Shown: piece after piece, positions 37,487 through 58,978 of the stretch
Layout of the letters: the number at the start of each line of letters is the position of its first letter
How positions within the stretch are numbered: the first letter of the stretch is position 1
DNA from: a virus
Reading direction: 5' to 3' (one strand)
IMG/VR virus record: IMGVR_UViG_3300012964_000011
Coordinates: 1-58,978 of that record
Length of the DNA: 58,978 nt
Program-made: the position numbers and the translations under genes
The notes under the pieces: model-generated
What the model saw: the letters and a program-made list of their open reading frames with translations, nothing else
Database searches by the model: none
What the model was told of the DNA's origin: nothing

Positions 37487-37648
37487 TCACCTATCATTCA
37501 TCCTATAGGCGATGTACAGGCTTGAGGTGAAAGTACACAATGCTCCTAAAATCAGGATCATTGGCACACTAGCCACATTTTCAATTGCTGCCAGCACCAT
37601 CAACACTGCCCAGAAGAACACATTCACTGTCTGTACTAAACTCTTCAT
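37487..37648 (-). CDS. small membrane protein after terminase
   Basis: A 53-residue protein with two close hydrophobic stretches (VFFWAVLMVLAAIENV and VPMILILGALCTF). ATG 37648 overlaps the terminase stop (TAATG). No family recognised. Confidence 0.6.
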   Translation of the reverse strand: MKSLVQTVNVFFWAVLMVLAAIENVASVPMILILGALCTFTSSLYIAYRMNDR

Positions 37649-39111
37649 TACCAACCTCTCTGCGATGCCCAATCTCCAGCAGACAAACCAGATGTCAAAT
37701 CTGTGTACATGTCTTGTACATCAGGCATTATCATAATACTGCTAACATTGTAGAACGCCAAGAGAAGTGCATCCGCGCTGTCAGGTGACATTCCCATGCG
37801 CTGTATGATGTCCTTCTTACGTTCTACCTTTATCTTGCCTTTTGAGTCTAGTATCTCGTACCTGGGAGCGGATAATTCCCGCAATGTGTCATCATCACAC
37901 GCTGATAGGTCCCAGGTACCCTTACGGGTATTTTCCCGTCCGATATTCCACCATATTTCAGCACGTTTATTGAGAAATTTGTCCTCAAGTCCAGGGGTGG
38001 GAGATTCAGCGACATTCACAGGTATGACTTCAATACCATACTCTGACAATAGCTCCTTGAGTCTGCCTGCAATGCCCCAACCTATACCAATCGAGTCTAT
38101 CTTGACCCGCTGTACTCCCCACTCTTTGATGGTGATAGCTAGATCACCTACAGTTGCCATTGGATCTGGATTTCTAAATACCCGTTCCTGCCCTGCTACA
38201 GCCCCTCTACGCTGTCGGATGACGGTACGGTCTCCCCCACCTCCGACGTCTATTCCCGCCTCTACAAGGCCATCTGAAGGTAGCTCCAGGTACTGGCACT
38301 TTTGCAGCTGAGTGAGTGGCATGATCGTGAACGGATCGGACGACGTGGGGAATAGTCCTCCACACTTGGAGATGAAGAGCGCGTCTTCCTCGCCCCACTT
38401 CAAACGTCGATCATCTACCCACTCCCTGGATATGAGCAAACTTCTTAGTCTGCTAGATACTTTCTCATTTGTGAAGTTTGGAGTGTCTTTATACCCAATA
38501 TGAATTACATTCCAACCTGGATCCCGCAAACAAACGTTACCAAATTCTGTATTAGGATCATCAGGATTACCTATTACAAACATACGTGAATTGACGTTTG
38601 ATGCCAAAGTGCTGGTAGCAGTCCAGATGTCAGGAGATATACCGCATCCCTCGTCTAGGATGACGAGGATGTACAGAGCGTGAATACCCTGGCCTGCTGT
38701 AGTGTCGTCATCCCTGGGCTTACGACCGAACGCTACTAGTTGATTACCTATGTACCATTCTGTAAGGTTTGTTCGCCCAGGGAGACCAGCATCCGCATGT
38801 ATTTTGTTGATCTCTCGCCATAAAACCGCCTTGACCTGCGCCGCGGTAGGTGCGGAGGTATAGACAAATGCCTCTCCAACCGGATGTGTGTCCAACCACC
38901 ATCCTGTGGCATACGCGGCAGTTCGGCTCTTACCGGCACTATGGCAAGAATGTACCGCTGTCTTCCTGTTATCACGAATTGACTCTAAAATTTCCTTCTG
39001 CTTACTCCAAAGTTCTCCTTTTACCCGTTCCTCTACCCAAGCAACAGGGTCATAGCGCCAAGACAGAGACTGCGGAGCAATCGCATCCGCAGCCTTTGCC
39101 CAAACCCCCAT
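37648..39111 (-). CDS. terL: terminase large subunit
   Basis: A 487-residue packaging motor. The ATPase has Walker A HSCHSAGKSRT (K61) and Walker B YILVILDEG (D153, E154). The nuclease domain has AGIDVGGGGDRT, KIDSIGIGWG and the C-terminal SPDSADALLLAF with its catalytic acidic residues. It cleaves and pumps DNA into the capsid with the portal. Small subunit candidate is at 41460-42155, separated by small genes. Confidence 0.95.
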   Translation of the reverse strand: MGVWAKAADAIAPQSLSWRYDPVAWVEERVKGELWSKQKEILESIRDNRKTAVHSCHSAGKSRTAAYATGWWLDTHPVGEAFVYTSAPTAAQVKAVLWREINKIHADAGLPGRTNLTEWYIGNQLVAFGRKPRDDDTTAGQGIHALYILVILDEGCGISPDIWTATSTLASNVNSRMFVIGNPDDPNTEFGNVCLRDPGWNVIHIGYKDTPNFTNEKVSSRLRSLLISREWVDDRRLKWGEEDALFISKCGGLFPTSSDPFTIMPLTQLQKCQYLELPSDGLVEAGIDVGGGGDRTVIRQRRGAVAGQERVFRNPDPMATVGDLAITIKEWGVQRVKIDSIGIGWGIAGRLKELLSEYGIEVIPVNVAESPTPGLEDKFLNKRAEIWWNIGRENTRKGTWDLSACDDDTLRELSAPRYEILDSKGKIKVERKKDIIQRMGMSPDSADALLLAFYNVSSIMIMPDVQDMYTDLTSGLSAGDWASQRGW

Positions 39112-42211: not shown

Positions 42212-42508
42212 ATGGATAGGCAAGTTATTCTGATCATTATCGGGCTGTTCACTACAGTATTTCAGCTCTCTGCGGTGTCTCTTCTCATCGCACAGTGTGT
42301 GATGATGACCAGAACTCGGAGAGAGTCCAGGGGGAACAGTCATCCGATAGAAGAGTGCATCTCTCACGGTGAACACACCATAGAGGAGTGCATCAATGAA
42401 GTGATGAAGATGATCCAGGAGGACAAGGAGCGTGAGGTGCTGAGATCCAGCACCATGCGACTCTCTGACCAGTTCATACCACTAACAGAGAGGTCTACTG
42501 TTGACTGA
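42212..42508 (+). CDS. single-TM membrane protein
   Basis: A 98-residue protein with one N-terminal hydrophobic helix (VILIIIGLFTTVFQLSAVSLL) and a charged cytoplasmic-like tail. AGGAGATCCAATCT precedes ATG 42212. First gene of the rightward cluster, divergent from the terminase small subunit with 56 bp between. Confidence 0.65.
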   Translation: MDRQVILIIIGLFTTVFQLSAVSLLIAQCVMMTRTRRESRGNSHPIEECISHGEHTIEECINEVMKMIQEDKEREVLRSSTMRLSDQFIPLTERSTVD

Positions 42509-42704: not shown

Positions 42705-42946
42705 ACCCTACCTGGTCTTTCGTACTGATGGCAACTGGTATCATAGGTATGTGGATAGCCCCTAGGAATCCTCGCACTGGTTGGATGATCAACATACTCA
42801 ACCAGCTGGTATGGATCGTGTACGCCGTAGCCACATACCAATGGGGGTTCTTGGTATCCGCATTTTTGTACGGAGCAACCTACATCCGATTCTATCTAAG
42901 GTCGTATGATGTCACGAAAAACGCGGAAGGAGCTGTCACAAACTAG
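42701..42946 (+). CDS. small multi-TM membrane protein
   Basis: An 81-residue protein with three hydrophobic stretches, including LNQLVWIVYAVATYQWGFLVSA and FLYGATYI, of a type frequent in actinophages. TTG start overlaps the upstream TGA. Function unknown. Confidence 0.65.
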   Translation: MNPTWSFVLMATGIIGMWIAPRNPRTGWMINILNQLVWIVYAVATYQWGFLVSAFLYGATYIRFYLRSYDVTKNAEGAVTN

Positions 42947-43169
42947 TAGAGCACAAAGGTGTAAAAAGTATGGTTCTGAGAGATCATGGCGTATCAACAA
43001 CCTTGAATTCTGTCCTAGATCAGGCAAACGCATATATCTGTCTGACATGGAGGCAGATCGAATATCGTCCAACGCGAAGGATGCTCCACCGTTGAGTTAC
43101 TACACATGCTGGTATTGCGGCATGTGGCATCTGACCACACAGAGATACAAGAGTAAGGGCAATGGCTGA
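42906..43169 (+). CDS. small zinc-ribbon-like protein
   Basis: An 87-residue protein with FCPRSGKRIY and YTCWYCGMWHLTTQ, matching small actinophage proteins with a C-terminal CxxCxxWHLT. Overlaps its neighbours by 41 and 8 nt. Probably zinc-binding; function unknown. Confidence 0.65.
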   Translation: MMSRKTRKELSQTSRAQRCKKYGSERSWRINNLEFCPRSGKRIYLSDMEADRISSNAKDAPPLSYYTCWYCGMWHLTTQRYKSKGNG

Positions 43170-43449
43170 ACTGAGAGACGCCGTGGAACTACTGACGACC
43201 GGGCGTGCACCTAAGAAGAAGAGAATAAGTTACGCATTGTATCTACAATTTTCAGTGCTACTGTACCTGAATTTAGCACATGCATACTTCTTCATGCTGG
43301 CAATAGGGGTCATCCACCACGAATGGATACCAGCACTTCCTACCATTGGATATGGTTGGTCGCTGATGGTGACTATCTTGATGCGACTAACGTTCAAGGA
43401 TACCAGATTTCCTGGTATCTGGAGAAATGTCGATTGGAAACGAATGTGA
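43162..43449 (+). CDS. small membrane protein
   Basis: A 95-residue protein with a basic N-terminus and two hydrophobic helices (YLQFSVLLYLNLAHAYFFML and TIGYGWSLMVTILM). Function unknown. Confidence 0.6.
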   Translation: MAELRDAVELLTTGRAPKKKRISYALYLQFSVLLYLNLAHAYFFMLAIGVIHHEWIPALPTIGYGWSLMVTILMRLTFKDTRFPGIWRNVDWKRM

Positions 43450-43970: not shown

Positions 43971-44004
43971 TAAGGGCGGAAGATGAATTCATCTTCCGCC
44001 CTTA
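43971..44004. terminator. 34-nt perfect palindrome terminator
   Basis: TAAGGGCGGAAGATGAA (43971-43987) is followed by its exact complement (43988-44004), then CTTTCT. It isolates the primase-helicase gene from upstream read-through. Confidence 0.75.
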
Positions 44005-44025: not shown

Positions 44026-44056
44026 GCCCATCAGGTCTGGCGGCCTGTCGATGGGC
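44026..44056 (+). promoter_or_regulatory. bulged hairpin upstream of the primase-helicase gene
   Basis: GCCCAT/ATGGGC and CAGG/CCTG pair in nested order with a 3-nt bulge. It buries the ATG at 44051, which argues for the later start at 44090 or for regulation of the early start. Confidence 0.45.
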
Positions 44057-44089
44057 ATTCACTCCAACAAAAGATGGGTACAGTATAGC

Positions 44090-46528
44090 ATGGTCACTCC
44101 CTCAGTGCTAAGAGCGTCTCTGTCCCTTTTCATAGATGCCGGACAGTCAGTCATTCCACTATATGGACGTAATTATCATGGTTGTGCCTGTTATGATAGA
44201 ATAAAGCATAAGCACTACAAAGCACCTAGAATTCATAGATGGCGTGAAACTCCGCCTCTTAGTGACGAACTACTCAATGAGTGGCACACATGTGTTAATC
44301 CAAGTGGTAAGAAGTGGATTGACCTTGGACTCAACTACGGTTGGGTAATCCCTCAAGATGTCATAGTCGTGGACATAGAGGGGAGACAGATCAGAGACTT
44401 CGCATCATCTGGACTCATCCCTGATCTGTCCACATGTTCCTACCTGGTCAACACTGCCGGAGGTGGGCTGCACATCGCCTACCGTCTTCCAGCTGGATTG
44501 CAGTCACGTCCTGTCGGGCATGCAACAGTCCAGGAAGCGGACAGTGGTTACCACTTCGAACTACGAGGGTACGGCAACTACGTCGTAGTACCCCCTTCCG
44601 ACGGCCACCGTAGACGCTGGGACTGGCTGAATCGTCCTGGGGTAGTCCAGGGTAGGTTGGAGCTTCCCGCGGCTCCTACGTTTCTACGTGACCTCCTGAA
44701 GCACCCTGTGAGTTCCGGATCGTCCAGGGGTGGCAGTGTCCGGGTATCTGTCTCAGATTTCGACATACAGGAATGCTCCGAGATTCCGGATGGATCACAG
44801 GAAGACCACCTGTACCGGGTGGCATGTTCGCTGCGAGCACGTGACGCGGACGATGACTCTGCACTCGGCATCCTGTACGGAGTAGTTGACGCATTCGTTG
44901 CTTATCGTCCTGATGATCCGTGGACACACGAGCATGCAGAGGCGAAGTGGTCTCACGTCAAAGATCATTACAACGCTGGACCATCAGAGCCTGTAATGGT
45001 GCCTATGCATGGTGTAGGTACAGGTTCGACTGCTGTAAAGGCTATGCGGGCCGTAGCATCTGTAAGTCCAGGAGAAGACGGGGTCATAGATAATATGAGT
45101 ACTTCTCACGTTGAGGCTGAATTCGCCAGTCTTACGCAGAGTATCGAGGATATTGTCCCTACAGTTCTTCCCTCCCCCTCTAATCCAATGGGAGTGGCTA
45201 GGCAACTGGTAGAGGCTTTCCGCGTAGCACAGGGACTGTCTGTCACCTGGTATCAGGGGGACTTCTACCGTTGGAAAGGTACACACTGGGAGCAATGGGA
45301 CAATGATGAAGTCAAAGGATGGTTGTACCGTGCCACGGAGCATGCAACCTATGCGGCACGTGGTAAGGATGGCGCTGTCAAACAGGTTCCGTGGGATCCA
45401 ACCAGACCTAAGATCGCAAATCTCATGTCTGCCCTTGCCAAGGGCGTACTACAGCGGACAGACGAGCCTGTAGACGGCCAGGGAACCATAGCATTCACGA
45501 ATACCACACTTAACCTACATAATCGTGAACTAATACCACATACACCAGAACACTTCAATATGTTTAGTTTGCCATATGCATATGATAAGAACGCCAAGTG
45601 TCCAAGATGGATAAAGTTTCTGGAAGAAACCTTTGGTAAGGATAGTGAACAAATAAAACTTATAGCACAAATGTTTGGATATATCCTCAGTGGACGAACA
45701 GACAAACAAGTACTTTTCTACATACTAGGTGAGGGTGGAACAGGAAAAGGGACTATTGCGCGTGTATTACGAGCAATGGTAGGAAAGCGTGATTCTGTAT
45801 CTTTAGAATTTGATGAGCTTACAGACAGATTTGGTACCGAAAGTCTGATCAACACATCCCTAGCGGTTGTAGGTGAGCCCGACTGGTCTTCAAGACAGAT
45901 CAACAAGGTGATAGATCGAGTATTCAGCATCACCGGTGAAGACGCTCCAGCTGCCAGACGTAAGAACCTCAAAGCATGGAAGGGTGAACTGAAGACCAGA
46001 TTCGTCTTCACAGGTACACAAGACATCTCTTTCGGATCCGCAACAACAGCAGAAGGAACCCGCAGGTTGGTGCTGCTCACCTGTAAGCGTAAAAGCTTGT
46101 CCAGGGGAGAGCGGAACACCAGTCTGACTGCTCAACTGTGTGGGGAGCTGCCAGGGATTCTCAACTGGGCACTCACCGGACTAGATGATCTTGATACTGC
46201 CGGAGACTTCCTGGTTCCGGCAGAGACTATGGGCGACATAGATGATGTCAAGTTGAACAGCAACCCAGTGGAGATATGGGCAGACGATCAATTGGCTGTT
46301 GATTCGGAATCCAAGATAGATTTTGACGAAATGTTCACTGCTTTCTCACTGTGGTGCATAGATCATCATGTGTACCAAAATCCTACACATGACCTACTAT
46401 GGTTCAGAAAGCGGCTTACGGCAATGCATCGTGGTGACATCACGTCCAAACCTGTACGTCCACCAACCGTAGACGGAGTCCGACAGAAACTTGTCAAATG
46501 CAAATTTGGATTGCGGTTGGTTACCTAG
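44090..46528 (+). CDS. PrimPol-D5 primase-helicase
   Basis: An 812-residue replication protein. The N-terminal part is an archaeo-eukaryotic-type primase-polymerase: VIVVDIEG near residue 94 and GGGLHIAYR. The C-terminal part is a D5-type SF3 helicase with FLEETFGKDSEQIKLIAQMFGY, Walker A GEGGTGKGT near residue 547 and SLAVVGEPDW. It would prime and unwind at the adjacent iteron region. TACAGT lies 5 nt before ATG 44090, suggesting a leaderless start; ATG 44051 is the alternative. Confidence 0.9.
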   Translation: MVTPSVLRASLSLFIDAGQSVIPLYGRNYHGCACYDRIKHKHYKAPRIHRWRETPPLSDELLNEWHTCVNPSGKKWIDLGLNYGWVIPQDVIVVDIEGRQIRDFASSGLIPDLSTCSYLVNTAGGGLHIAYRLPAGLQSRPVGHATVQEADSGYHFELRGYGNYVVVPPSDGHRRRWDWLNRPGVVQGRLELPAAPTFLRDLLKHPVSSGSSRGGSVRVSVSDFDIQECSEIPDGSQEDHLYRVACSLRARDADDDSALGILYGVVDAFVAYRPDDPWTHEHAEAKWSHVKDHYNAGPSEPVMVPMHGVGTGSTAVKAMRAVASVSPGEDGVIDNMSTSHVEAEFASLTQSIEDIVPTVLPSPSNPMGVARQLVEAFRVAQGLSVTWYQGDFYRWKGTHWEQWDNDEVKGWLYRATEHATYAARGKDGAVKQVPWDPTRPKIANLMSALAKGVLQRTDEPVDGQGTIAFTNTTLNLHNRELIPHTPEHFNMFSLPYAYDKNAKCPRWIKFLEETFGKDSEQIKLIAQMFGYILSGRTDKQVLFYILGEGGTGKGTIARVLRAMVGKRDSVSLEFDELTDRFGTESLINTSLAVVGEPDWSSRQINKVIDRVFSITGEDAPAARRKNLKAWKGELKTRFVFTGTQDISFGSATTAEGTRRLVLLTCKRKSLSRGERNTSLTAQLCGELPGILNWALTGLDDLDTAGDFLVPAETMGDIDDVKLNSNPVEIWADDQLAVDSESKIDFDEMFTAFSLWCIDHHVYQNPTHDLLWFRKRLTAMHRGDITSKPVRPPTVDGVRQKLVKCKFGLRLVT

Positions 46529-46580
46529 ATTCCCGGTCGGTTACCTAGTTCTGCTGTTCAAACATTCTTAGCATATCAGA

Positions 46581-46654
46581 CAAATAGTGGCATACAGCCC
46601 AGGAGAGAGTTACGCGGAGTGGTAACCAATCTTCTGACTGTATGCCACTATTTG
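46581..46654. repeat. 17-bp inverted repeat enclosing an iteron
   Basis: CAAATAGTGGCATACAG (46581-46597) and its complement (46638-46654) flank 40 nt that include the iteron at 46621. A cruciform or transcript hairpin at the left edge of the iteron field. Confidence 0.7.
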
Positions 46655-47166
46655 CTTACTACCTGTAATTTTTTCAAGATCATGGTTACCATTTTTCCCG
46701 TGGTTACCAAACCGAAAAAAAGTGGTAACCAGAGTTTCCCCTGGTCAGAGCGTTTGGTTACCTGGTTACCGTGGTTACCGCATTTTCTTGTGTACGTCCC
46801 TCTATAAGAACGTTACGGCTCCATATAATTTACTGCTAATAGCATATGTTAATTAGATACCCCCTATTTCAATACGCTATTAACAGCAAACATACTCTCC
46901 AAAACTCTATATATATATTTCTTAGGTAACCATAGTAACCAGGTAACCAGAGAGGGATCTTAGTACTTTTAGCAGGCAATATAGAAGATCATCGTGGTTA
47001 CCAACTTGGTTACCTTGGTTACCTTTTTGTGGTTACCCCAGAAAATGTGCCACTTGACCAGGTGCTATTACAGATTGTAGTGGATCAAATACATTGATAA
47101 TTTACGATAGGTGTTGACCTGTGTTTATAGATCAGTGTAGATGATTGATGATCTTTAATAAAGAAC

Positions 47167-47175
47167 TTATCCACA
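47167..47175 (+). other. DnaA box
   Basis: TTATCCACA, a perfect match to the bacterial DnaA box consensus, 130 nt right of the main iterons and next to GATC-containing AT-rich DNA. Host DnaA could assist initiation. Confidence 0.6.
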
Positions 47176-47415
47176 CAAAGTAGACAGAAATCTTACCTAG
47201 TGCTACTCAATAACTACCTATCGTAGTCAAATCTGCCTCACCCCCTGGATACTCCGGTAACCACACTGACTGTCAAACACCCCCTGGGCGTACCGAGGAT
47301 GGCGGTTGATTGAGTCCATGGGTAGCTGACAGATGGTCGCTACAGTTGTGTGTATGTCAAGTCATGTGACATACTATCTCTGTACGTATCTGAAGGACCC
47401 GAGGAAGGAAACATC

Positions 47416-51466: not shown

Positions 51467-52123
51467 ATGAAGAATCAATATTCTAAGTTTGCCCCTCCCC
51501 CTGGATTGATGTACTGTGCCTTGAGTACCGAGATTCCCGGGGATCCAGAACAGAATGGGGACAAAATGCCTGAACCTGTAAGTTTATGTCAAATGACCTT
51601 CAGCCAGAAAATGGCATATGCCCTGGAAAAAGAGGAGGAACTGAAAGAAGGCGAAGTTAAATCGCGGAACCGGGCCAGGTACGGATTGCCGAGCATCACC
51701 GAGACGGTGTGTCGTGACATTTGCCTATCGAAGTCTCAGTACTACCGGGGGAAGAGAATATGGACAGCAAGATGGTCAGATGATCCAGAGGTTGCAGATA
51801 CAGCTGAGGAACTCATCCGCCTCCTGGATTCTTCCGGAATCACGATTGTAGAAGCAGACAAGCGACTGCATAGACTGAGAGACCAGCGAGCGCAGGGAGT
51901 CCGAACAAAGTTTACAGTCCTAGAACAGCATAAACTTCTCAAAACACTGCCCGAACTTGCTGGTATGGCCCTTGCTCTGTCCAGGGTGCCGGAGTTATCC
52001 GGCGATTGTGATCCGGTACTCATCTACCGATCCCTGGATTTTGCGAACCGGGCGAGAAGGGATCTTAAGCATCTAATTGATACACTAAAGAAATTTACCC
52101 CAAACGGGGACTATTTCTCATAG
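51467..52123 (+). CDS. HTH DNA-binding protein upstream of the ParB-like gene
   Basis: A 218-residue protein. SITETVCRDICLSKSQYYRGKRI is a HTH-like segment near residue 75, followed by helices. The gene is 23 nt before the ParB-like gene, suggesting they act together. TAAATA lies 6 nt before ATG 51467, and no ribosome-binding site is seen, so a leaderless start is possible. Confidence 0.55.
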   Translation: MKNQYSKFAPPPGLMYCALSTEIPGDPEQNGDKMPEPVSLCQMTFSQKMAYALEKEEELKEGEVKSRNRARYGLPSITETVCRDICLSKSQYYRGKRIWTARWSDDPEVADTAEELIRLLDSSGITIVEADKRLHRLRDQRAQGVRTKFTVLEQHKLLKTLPELAGMALALSRVPELSGDCDPVLIYRSLDFANRARRDLKHLIDTLKKFTPNGDYFS

Positions 52124-52146: not shown

Positions 52147-52923
52147 ATGAAACGACCGATCACTACGATCCTAAGAGCATCACAACTCAAGATTGATCCT
52201 ACTGTGCAGCGTAGGATCAACATGTCTCGTGTGTCGGAGATGGCACATAACCTAGAGTATGAGGCGCTGGGATTCATCACCGTGTCAGCACGTAATACAG
52301 ATGAGAGTCAATACTACGTGATTGACGGGCAACACCGCGTAGCGGCTGTTTGCAAGGTGAATTCGGGCTATCAAATGAGATGTCAGGTTTTTTATGGTTT
52401 GACCATCCAGGAAGAGGCACAACTGTTCAGGCTTCTGAATAACACTGCAAAGCCGGATGCCATTGACTCATTCCTGATCAAGTGTGTGGAAGGGGATCCA
52501 GCTTCCCTGGATATTGACAAGATTCTAGAAGAACGAGATTGGTCTGTCTCCGCCCGCGGAGCGGAGCGTGTAGTACGGAGCATCCGGACTATTGAGAAGC
52601 TGTATGCCAGGGGTACTCCGAAGACGTTGGAGAGCACCGTGGACGTTCTTACGGCAGCGTACGGGTACCACTACACCACCATGGATTTTCGTCTCGTGTC
52701 GGGGTTGTGGGAATTTTTCCATAGGCACGTGACAGTTGCGATCCCCGATGAAGGGCGTGTAATCAAGGTCCTCAGCACGTATCCAGGGGGTAGCCAGGCA
52801 CTGATTGGAATGGGCCTAGGACATGCCCTTACCAGGAACGGTGTTGGTACGTGCATCGCACGGGTAGTCACAGAACTATATAACAAAGGACTTAGGACGA
52901 GAATGAAACTCTCAAGCATCTAA
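52147..52923 (+). CDS. ParB/Srx-fold protein with DGQHR motif
   Basis: A 258-residue protein. YYVIDGQHRVAAV near residue 60 is the ParB/Srx phosphate-binding core, preceded by a DNA-contacting segment and followed by EEAQLFRLLNNTAKP as in ParB-like phage nuclease/CTPase proteins. AAAGGAGGATAATCA precedes the ATG. Possible roles are partition-like binding at the iteron region or nuclease activity; neither is proven. Confidence 0.75.
   Translation: MKRPITTILRASQLKIDPTVQRRINMSRVSEMAHNLEYEALGFITVSARNTDESQYYVIDGQHRVAAVCKVNSGYQMRCQVFYGLTIQEEAQLFRLLNNTAKPDAIDSFLIKCVEGDPASLDIDKILEERDWSVSARGAERVVRSIRTIEKLYARGTPKTLESTVDVLTAAYGYHYTTMDFRLVSGLWEFFHRHVTVAIPDEGRVIKVLSTYPGGSQALIGMGLGHALTRNGVGTCIARVVTELYNKGLRTRMKLSSI

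Positions 52924-58896: not shown

Positions 58897-58978
<82 letters not shown>

Follow-up and report, generated by a model that had tools for sequence, protein, structure and literature searches.

A GGTTACC iteron dyad beside a phage primase-helicase gene is a probable replication origin

The DNA analysed here, called the window throughout, is a 58,978-bp viral contig taken over its whole length. A large terminase subunit is encoded at 37648-39111, with Arthrobacter phages among its nearest relatives, and the contig ends in a 46-bp direct terminal repeat (1-46 and 58933-58978) made almost entirely of (GT)n plus CAAC, which suggests either that the record is circularly closed or that the assembly was joined at a microsatellite. 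The primase-helicase gene at 44051-46528 has its nearest relatives in genomes almost entirely among Actinomycetota, and an actinobacterial host is therefore likely for this phage. The Pfam domains Prim-Pol, D5_N and DUF5906 all score above cut-off in the encoded protein. An AlphaFold model of residues 370-825 (mean pLDDT 86) finds its best match in the SaPI5 primase-helicase 7ola (Foldseek E 7e-15, Z 29.8), and the protein belongs among the D5/SaPI5 Rep-like SF3/AAA+ helicases. Just upstream of the gene lies a strong 15-bp hairpin (TAAGGGCGGAAGATGAATTC..., 43971-44004) that gave a match in a terminator-like scan; tRNA was the sole match in an Rfam scan. Near the start of the rightward operon, at 42735-43418, six ATACCAG words in both orientations form a repeat set second to and looser than the array described below; it includes the inverted pair GGATACCAGATTTCCTGGTATC near 43398-43419 and is a possible operator.

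The 3' end of the helicase gene runs into a dense array of short repeats. Sixteen exact copies of GGTTACC lie between 46519 and 47262, 11 on the plus strand and 5 on the minus strand; 15 of the 16 share the extended form TGGTTACC, and a seventeenth site, at 46934, differs from the word by one mismatch. The first copy overlaps the last codons of the gene and all others lie 3' of it, the same placement, immediately 3' of the initiator gene, that the iterons of PICI/SaPI-type origins have. Composition shuffles (2000) give 0.07 copies in a 744-bp stretch and never more than 2, and elsewhere in the record no mixed-orientation 7-mer exceeds 5 copies per 744-bp window. Over the full window the word occurs 24 times against 5.2 (sd 2.2) expected from shuffles. 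A literature search for GGTTACC returned no relevant match.

The array is arranged about a point of symmetry. Two inverted arms of 25 nt, 92% complementary, stand on either side of a 145-nt AT-rich core, and their centre at 46852 is common to three oppositely oriented site pairs as well as to the pair 46702/46996; a shared centre of this kind arises in 2-3% of random site placements. The core is 68% AT against 52% in the record, a level equalled by 0.4% of windows, and the AT level of its best 60 nt is equalled by 0.07%. Two sets of iterons around an AT-rich region are also the layout of PICI/SaPI-type origins. Between the gene and the dyad lies a perfect 17-bp inverted repeat (46581-46597 and 46638-46654), which as single-stranded DNA is predicted to fold very stably (z -7.0). 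The first-pass annotation had described 16 GGTTACC 7-mers in 744 bp in both orientations, spacings of 8-9 nt and 20 nt, an AT-rich block and a 17-bp inverted repeat, and each of these holds on recounting. The features are collected in Table 1.

Table 1. Coordinates of the array, its parts and the neighbouring initiator gene in the window
Feature	Position	Strand	Remarks
Primase-helicase, 825 aa, proposed self-loading initiator	44051..46528	+	Prim-Pol, D5_N, DUF5906 AAA+ helicase, C-terminal winged helix
C-terminal winged-helix domain, proposed origin-binding	46256..46528	+	Family profile, Pfam Pox_D5 in relatives
Whole iteron array	46518..47263	.	16 exact GGTTACC (15 = TGGTTACC) plus 1-mismatch site 46934
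Iteron pair, 46519 and 46539, 20 nt apart	46518..46545	+	First overlaps helicase gene end
17-bp perfect inverted repeat (CAAATAGTGGCATACAG), 40-nt loop holding iteron 46621	46581..46654	.	53 nt past helicase stop
Iterons 46684 (+), 46702 (+), 46724 (-)	46683..46731	.	
Left dyad arm, iterons 46756, 46764, 46773 (TG-first)	46755..46779	+	25-nt inverted repeat I1, 92%
AT-rich core, proposed melting region, includes TATATATATATT	46780..46924	.	68% AT
Right dyad arm, iterons 46925, 46934 (1 mismatch), 46942 (CA-last)	46925..46949	-	Exact mirror of left arm about 46852
Outer group, four iterons: 46996, 47008, 47017, 47031	46995..47037	+	
Single TTATCCACA, DnaA-box match	47167..47175	+	Not above chance
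Isolated distal iteron	47256..47263	-	

Comparison with related loci shows that the layout is kept while the word is replaced. A single-protein search of viral contigs found no close relatives of the primase, and alignment was therefore needed to reach them. When an array was scored as at least 7 copies of one 7-mer within 700 bp past the helicase stop, 22 of 42 close viral relatives had one, against 1 of 263 control windows drawn from the same loci as these relatives; for genome loci the figures were 14/74 and 27/485. Twenty of the 42 fell below the threshold with exact words, as did all 37 loci of a more distant viral clade, and degenerate arrays would be missed, exact 7-mers alone being counted. 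The two best plasmid relatives of the helicase, from Streptomyces virginiae and Pseudonocardia, each carry an inverted array just past the 3' end of the helicase gene, with 11 copies of CCCTGAACA and of GCGGGGCC, respectively; Marinobacter phage PS6 has 10 copies of GGGACA 3' of its helicase gene, and TGTGCAGGG is the word of one relative. Absence of the array from relatives with the helicase gene had been named in advance as grounds for giving up the origin; the array is present in them, with a different word. Among Streptomyces phages the closest relatives are Yara, PHTowN and Wentworth, and where the surroundings of their primase were inspected no clear array was seen. Proteus phage 2207-N35 carries about 10 TGAAACA/TGTTTCA words in both orientations, within a largely non-coding stretch (L236:6392-6681) 3.3 kb from its P4-type primase, a possible origin apart from the gene.

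The core is kept along with the arrays. With its boundaries set by the facing sites, it could be placed in 18 loci, one of them the window; in all 18 it has a TG-first arm on one side and a CA-last arm on the other and is AT-richer than the rest of the region (Wilcoxon p 8e-6). Cores have a median length of about 90 nt, and that of the window, at 145 nt, is longer than most; the inner spacings there are 8-9 nt. A compact 8-site dyad with fixed positions is common in Streptomyces elements. In L417, an example from the actinobacterial plasmids and integrated elements with D5-type helicases, the dyad 3' of the gene has CGGCCCA at 21+, 31+, 74+, 84+, 105-, 115-, 156- and 166-. The motif CAATGG, seen by eye in several relatives, was considered as a conserved core motif and dropped, being absent from the window.

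GGTTACC itself also occurs in unrelated viral contigs, and its sharing was rejected as proof of kinship on the strength of a control word: mixed triplets of CCATTGG turned up in 69 contigs and those of GGTTACC in at least 119, and the control word too forms large clusters. Many of the GGTTACC matches are coding repeats with a spacing that is a multiple of 3; the long one-strand stretches of the large contigs L068, L073, L115, L061, L029 and similar are of this type and unrelated to origins. In another seven unrelated viral contigs (L011, L101, L038, L159, L178, L197, L217), helicase genes of the DUF927 (Cch-like) or D5 type have a GGTTACC array at their 3' end, the DUF927 contigs placing the word alongside another helicase family. 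Where a D5/DUF927 helicase was detected, the array is mostly at the 3' end of the gene; the exceptions are L098, with the array 5' of the gene, and L195 and L223, where it is distant.

The part of the protein most likely to read the word is its C-terminal domain. A profile of the C-terminal family matches, across the full domain, the DNA-binding domains of two proteins in the PDB, RFX5 (E 4.4e-5) and hRFX1 (E 1.4e-4), and among 33 family members Pfam Pox_D5 is found in 28 and RFX_DNA_binding in 16. The window's own C-terminal domain, taken alone, falls below both Pox_D5 and RFX, so that the link runs via the family profile; a model of this domain alone (pLDDT 79) has RFX5 and hRFX1 as its top matches, both weak. 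RFX factors recognize an X-box whose half-site is RGYAAC. The phage word contains GGTAAC, and thus an RFX half-site, at a chance of 0.6% per random 8-mer; the match may be a coincidence, because the word is one of 25 examined. In the structure of a viral relative, the tail was likened to the P4 origin-binding domain and to Rfx1 (PMC10516667).

Covariation connects this domain with the word. Across 21 loci, word similarity follows the identity of the C-terminal region once the helicase core is allowed for (partial r 0.43, p 0.0005; the value is 0.41 when the tight CCTGCA cluster is left out), and the middle helicase segments of the same loci do not correlate with the word. In a 40-locus set the C-terminal partial r is 0.29 (p 0.0005), and the N-terminal helicase segment retains a small residual correlation of 0.18 (p 0.0015); these are pairwise comparisons of related sequences, and the p-values are guides. 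Among the initiators suggested in the first-pass annotation, the D5 primase-helicase is singled out by this covariation and by its relatives at array loci. The other three, the 47416 product, the helix-turn-helix protein at 51467 and the ParB-like protein at 52147 (DUF6551), have no relatives in any array-bearing locus and drop out. Other genes near the array in the window have just two stray matches to 42701 and one to 41460, leaving the primase-helicase as the sole neighbouring gene with relatives in such loci.

These results bear on two other ways to read the array. It could be an operator or silencer through which a phage repressor, such as the 51467 protein, or the ParB-like protein acts on transcription or partition, comparable to stoperators or a parS cluster. 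Operators could equally take the form of short words in two orientations within a non-coding gap, and the window does encode a ParB-like protein. This reading is nevertheless improbable: the sites are packed in one 744-bp block instead of being scattered over promoters, relatives retain the block beside the helicase gene without the ParB-like and 51467 genes, and the word varies with the helicase C terminus. Alternatively, the locus could be an origin opened by another initiator, either host DnaA at TTATCCACA or the product of 47416, the next gene downstream, with the helicase merely recruited. The perfect DnaA box within the array, which the first-pass annotation had pointed out, is present and would suit this idea, but it carries no weight as evidence, with 2 TTWTNCACA in the window against 5.2 expected, fewer than chance and no cluster. 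The 47416 protein also lacks relatives at array loci, the helicase belongs to the self-loading type of SaPI5 Rep, and another initiator is improbable. Cumulative GC skew, proposed as a check on the origin, has its minimum at 42293, which coincides with a switch of gene direction. With the box at chance level and this minimum 4.5 kb from the array, both were set aside as origin evidence.

The interval 46518-47263 is thus very probably the replication origin of the phage, bound through the C-terminal winged helix and melted by the phage's own self-loading primase-helicase. An iteron-type origin bound by a phage initiator, as originally proposed, fits all the findings, and it accommodates what can be read directly from the DNA and protein sequences: the array, its symmetry, the AT-rich core, the 3' placement, the recurrence with other words and the covariation of word and C terminus. 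In the mechanism that we infer, the RFX-like winged helix of the Prim-Pol/D5 protein would bind the TGGTTACC words, and the copies on the two inverted arms would assemble two facing helicase hexamers over the core. This double hexamer would melt the core and unwind outward for bidirectional replication, the first primers being laid by the protein's own Prim-Pol domain. The mechanism is modelled on the precedents of SaPI Rep and PICI origins, together with the P4 crr of like make-up.

A further possibility is that origin function resides in the 17-bp hairpin and not in the iteron dyad, as has been proposed for pRN1-type initiators. It starts 53 nt past the stop codon, where the corresponding distance for the pRN1 stem-loop is 54 bp, and its fold is very stable. 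Hairpins of this type are only weakly enriched among relatives (8/42 against 3/116 windows), several of the long ones are the inverted iteron arms themselves, and the pRN1 stem is itself composed of iteron pairs. The case for the hairpin as a conserved element is weak, and the chance that it is the origin is slim.

The pRN1 origin merits a second look in light of the iteron dyad, the preferred origin element here. This Sulfolobus plasmid has an experimentally mapped 100-bp origin 3' of the gene for a Prim-Pol/SF3/winged-helix protein, for which the published account gives a 21-nt stem, a loop of 58 nt and an absence of iterons; the mutants considered here from that account delete parts of the stem or loop, which leaves pairing and binding unseparated (PMC4234260). 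In the plasmid sequence (NC_001771, L475:5080-5187), the arms consist of ATGTCCATAGTGTCCAACT and its complement, with two TGTCCA at 9-bp spacing on either side of a 58-nt core that is 78% AT. Nearly the same arms (TGTTCCATAAGTTCCAACA) occur within the 10-11 iterons of Pediococcus and lactobacillus PICI-like plasmids. Across five pRN-family plasmids the stem arms match themselves when shifted by 9 (0.44, compared with 0.23-0.29 for other shifts; p 0.0004), a tendency that pRN2, pHEN7, pDL10 and pSSVx share. The proven pRN1 origin therefore looks like a minimal form of the iteron-dyad element of the window, and a simple reinterpretation offers itself, in which protein-binding sites take the place of a DNA hairpin.

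These observations can be joined into one broader reading, which has about an even chance of being right as a whole. A single architecture, in which a TG-first pair, an AT-rich core and a CA-last pair follow immediately on the 3' side of the gene for a primase-helicase that carries an RFX-like winged helix, would span phages, actinobacterial elements, PICI-like plasmids, P4 and the archaeal pRN plasmids, and the pRN1 "stem-loop" would be such a dyad. Its word would change quickly and in step with the winged helix, making origin specificity a swappable lock and key, and the GGTAAC in the phage word would be the half-site that eukaryotic RFX factors read via a homologous domain. The many natural pairs of origin word and winged helix are enough to attempt a recognition code, and they could allow such elements to be grouped by replicon compatibility on the basis of sequence.

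An origin of this kind is already known from PICI/SaPI elements and P4, and here it appears in what looks like a full phage. SaPI Rep recognizes iterons directly downstream of the rep gene through its C-terminal domain (PMC7581432); PICI origins have one set of iterons on each side of an AT-rich region 3' of rep, and a region from one of these origins supported plasmid maintenance when tested (PMC6092414). The window shares with these systems the two iteron sets, the AT-rich region between them, the position immediately 3' of the initiator-helicase gene (PMC6092414, PMC7581432) and a helicase fold closest to SaPI5 Rep. Unlike the satellites, it is a phage record of 59 kb that encodes a large terminase of its own; it has 16 sites and a 145-nt core, and its helicase carries a fused Prim-Pol primase. 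A PICI is a satellite that lacks a full set of its own virion genes, whereas the terminase and the 46-bp terminal repeat point to a full phage here, and no claim is made that the window is a PICI element. The PICI-type origin has been described as unique to those elements among bacterial replicons; the present reading would place it in an apparently full phage and in a wide set of actinobacterial elements as well.

The P4 alpha protein is likewise a primase-helicase with a C-terminal origin-binding winged helix. Its crr lies directly 3' of the alpha gene and holds ori type 1 repeats (GTGAACA) in inverted groups, the arrangement found here. P4 differs in its Toprim-type primase (PMC4234260), in its duplicated 120-bp crr, in a second, distant ori and in its word. 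The actinobacterial plasmids and integrated elements with D5-type helicases are the closest primase-helicase relatives, at about 32-37% identity, and have dyads 3' of the gene. Their words are different, and the Streptomyces clade departs further, with at most 8 sites, a central gap of about 14 nt and the opposite site polarity. The pRN1 family combines Prim-Pol, SF3 helicase and C-terminal winged helix with an origin 3' of the gene (PMC4234260), as in the window, and differs in having four sites only, published as a stem-loop without iterons.
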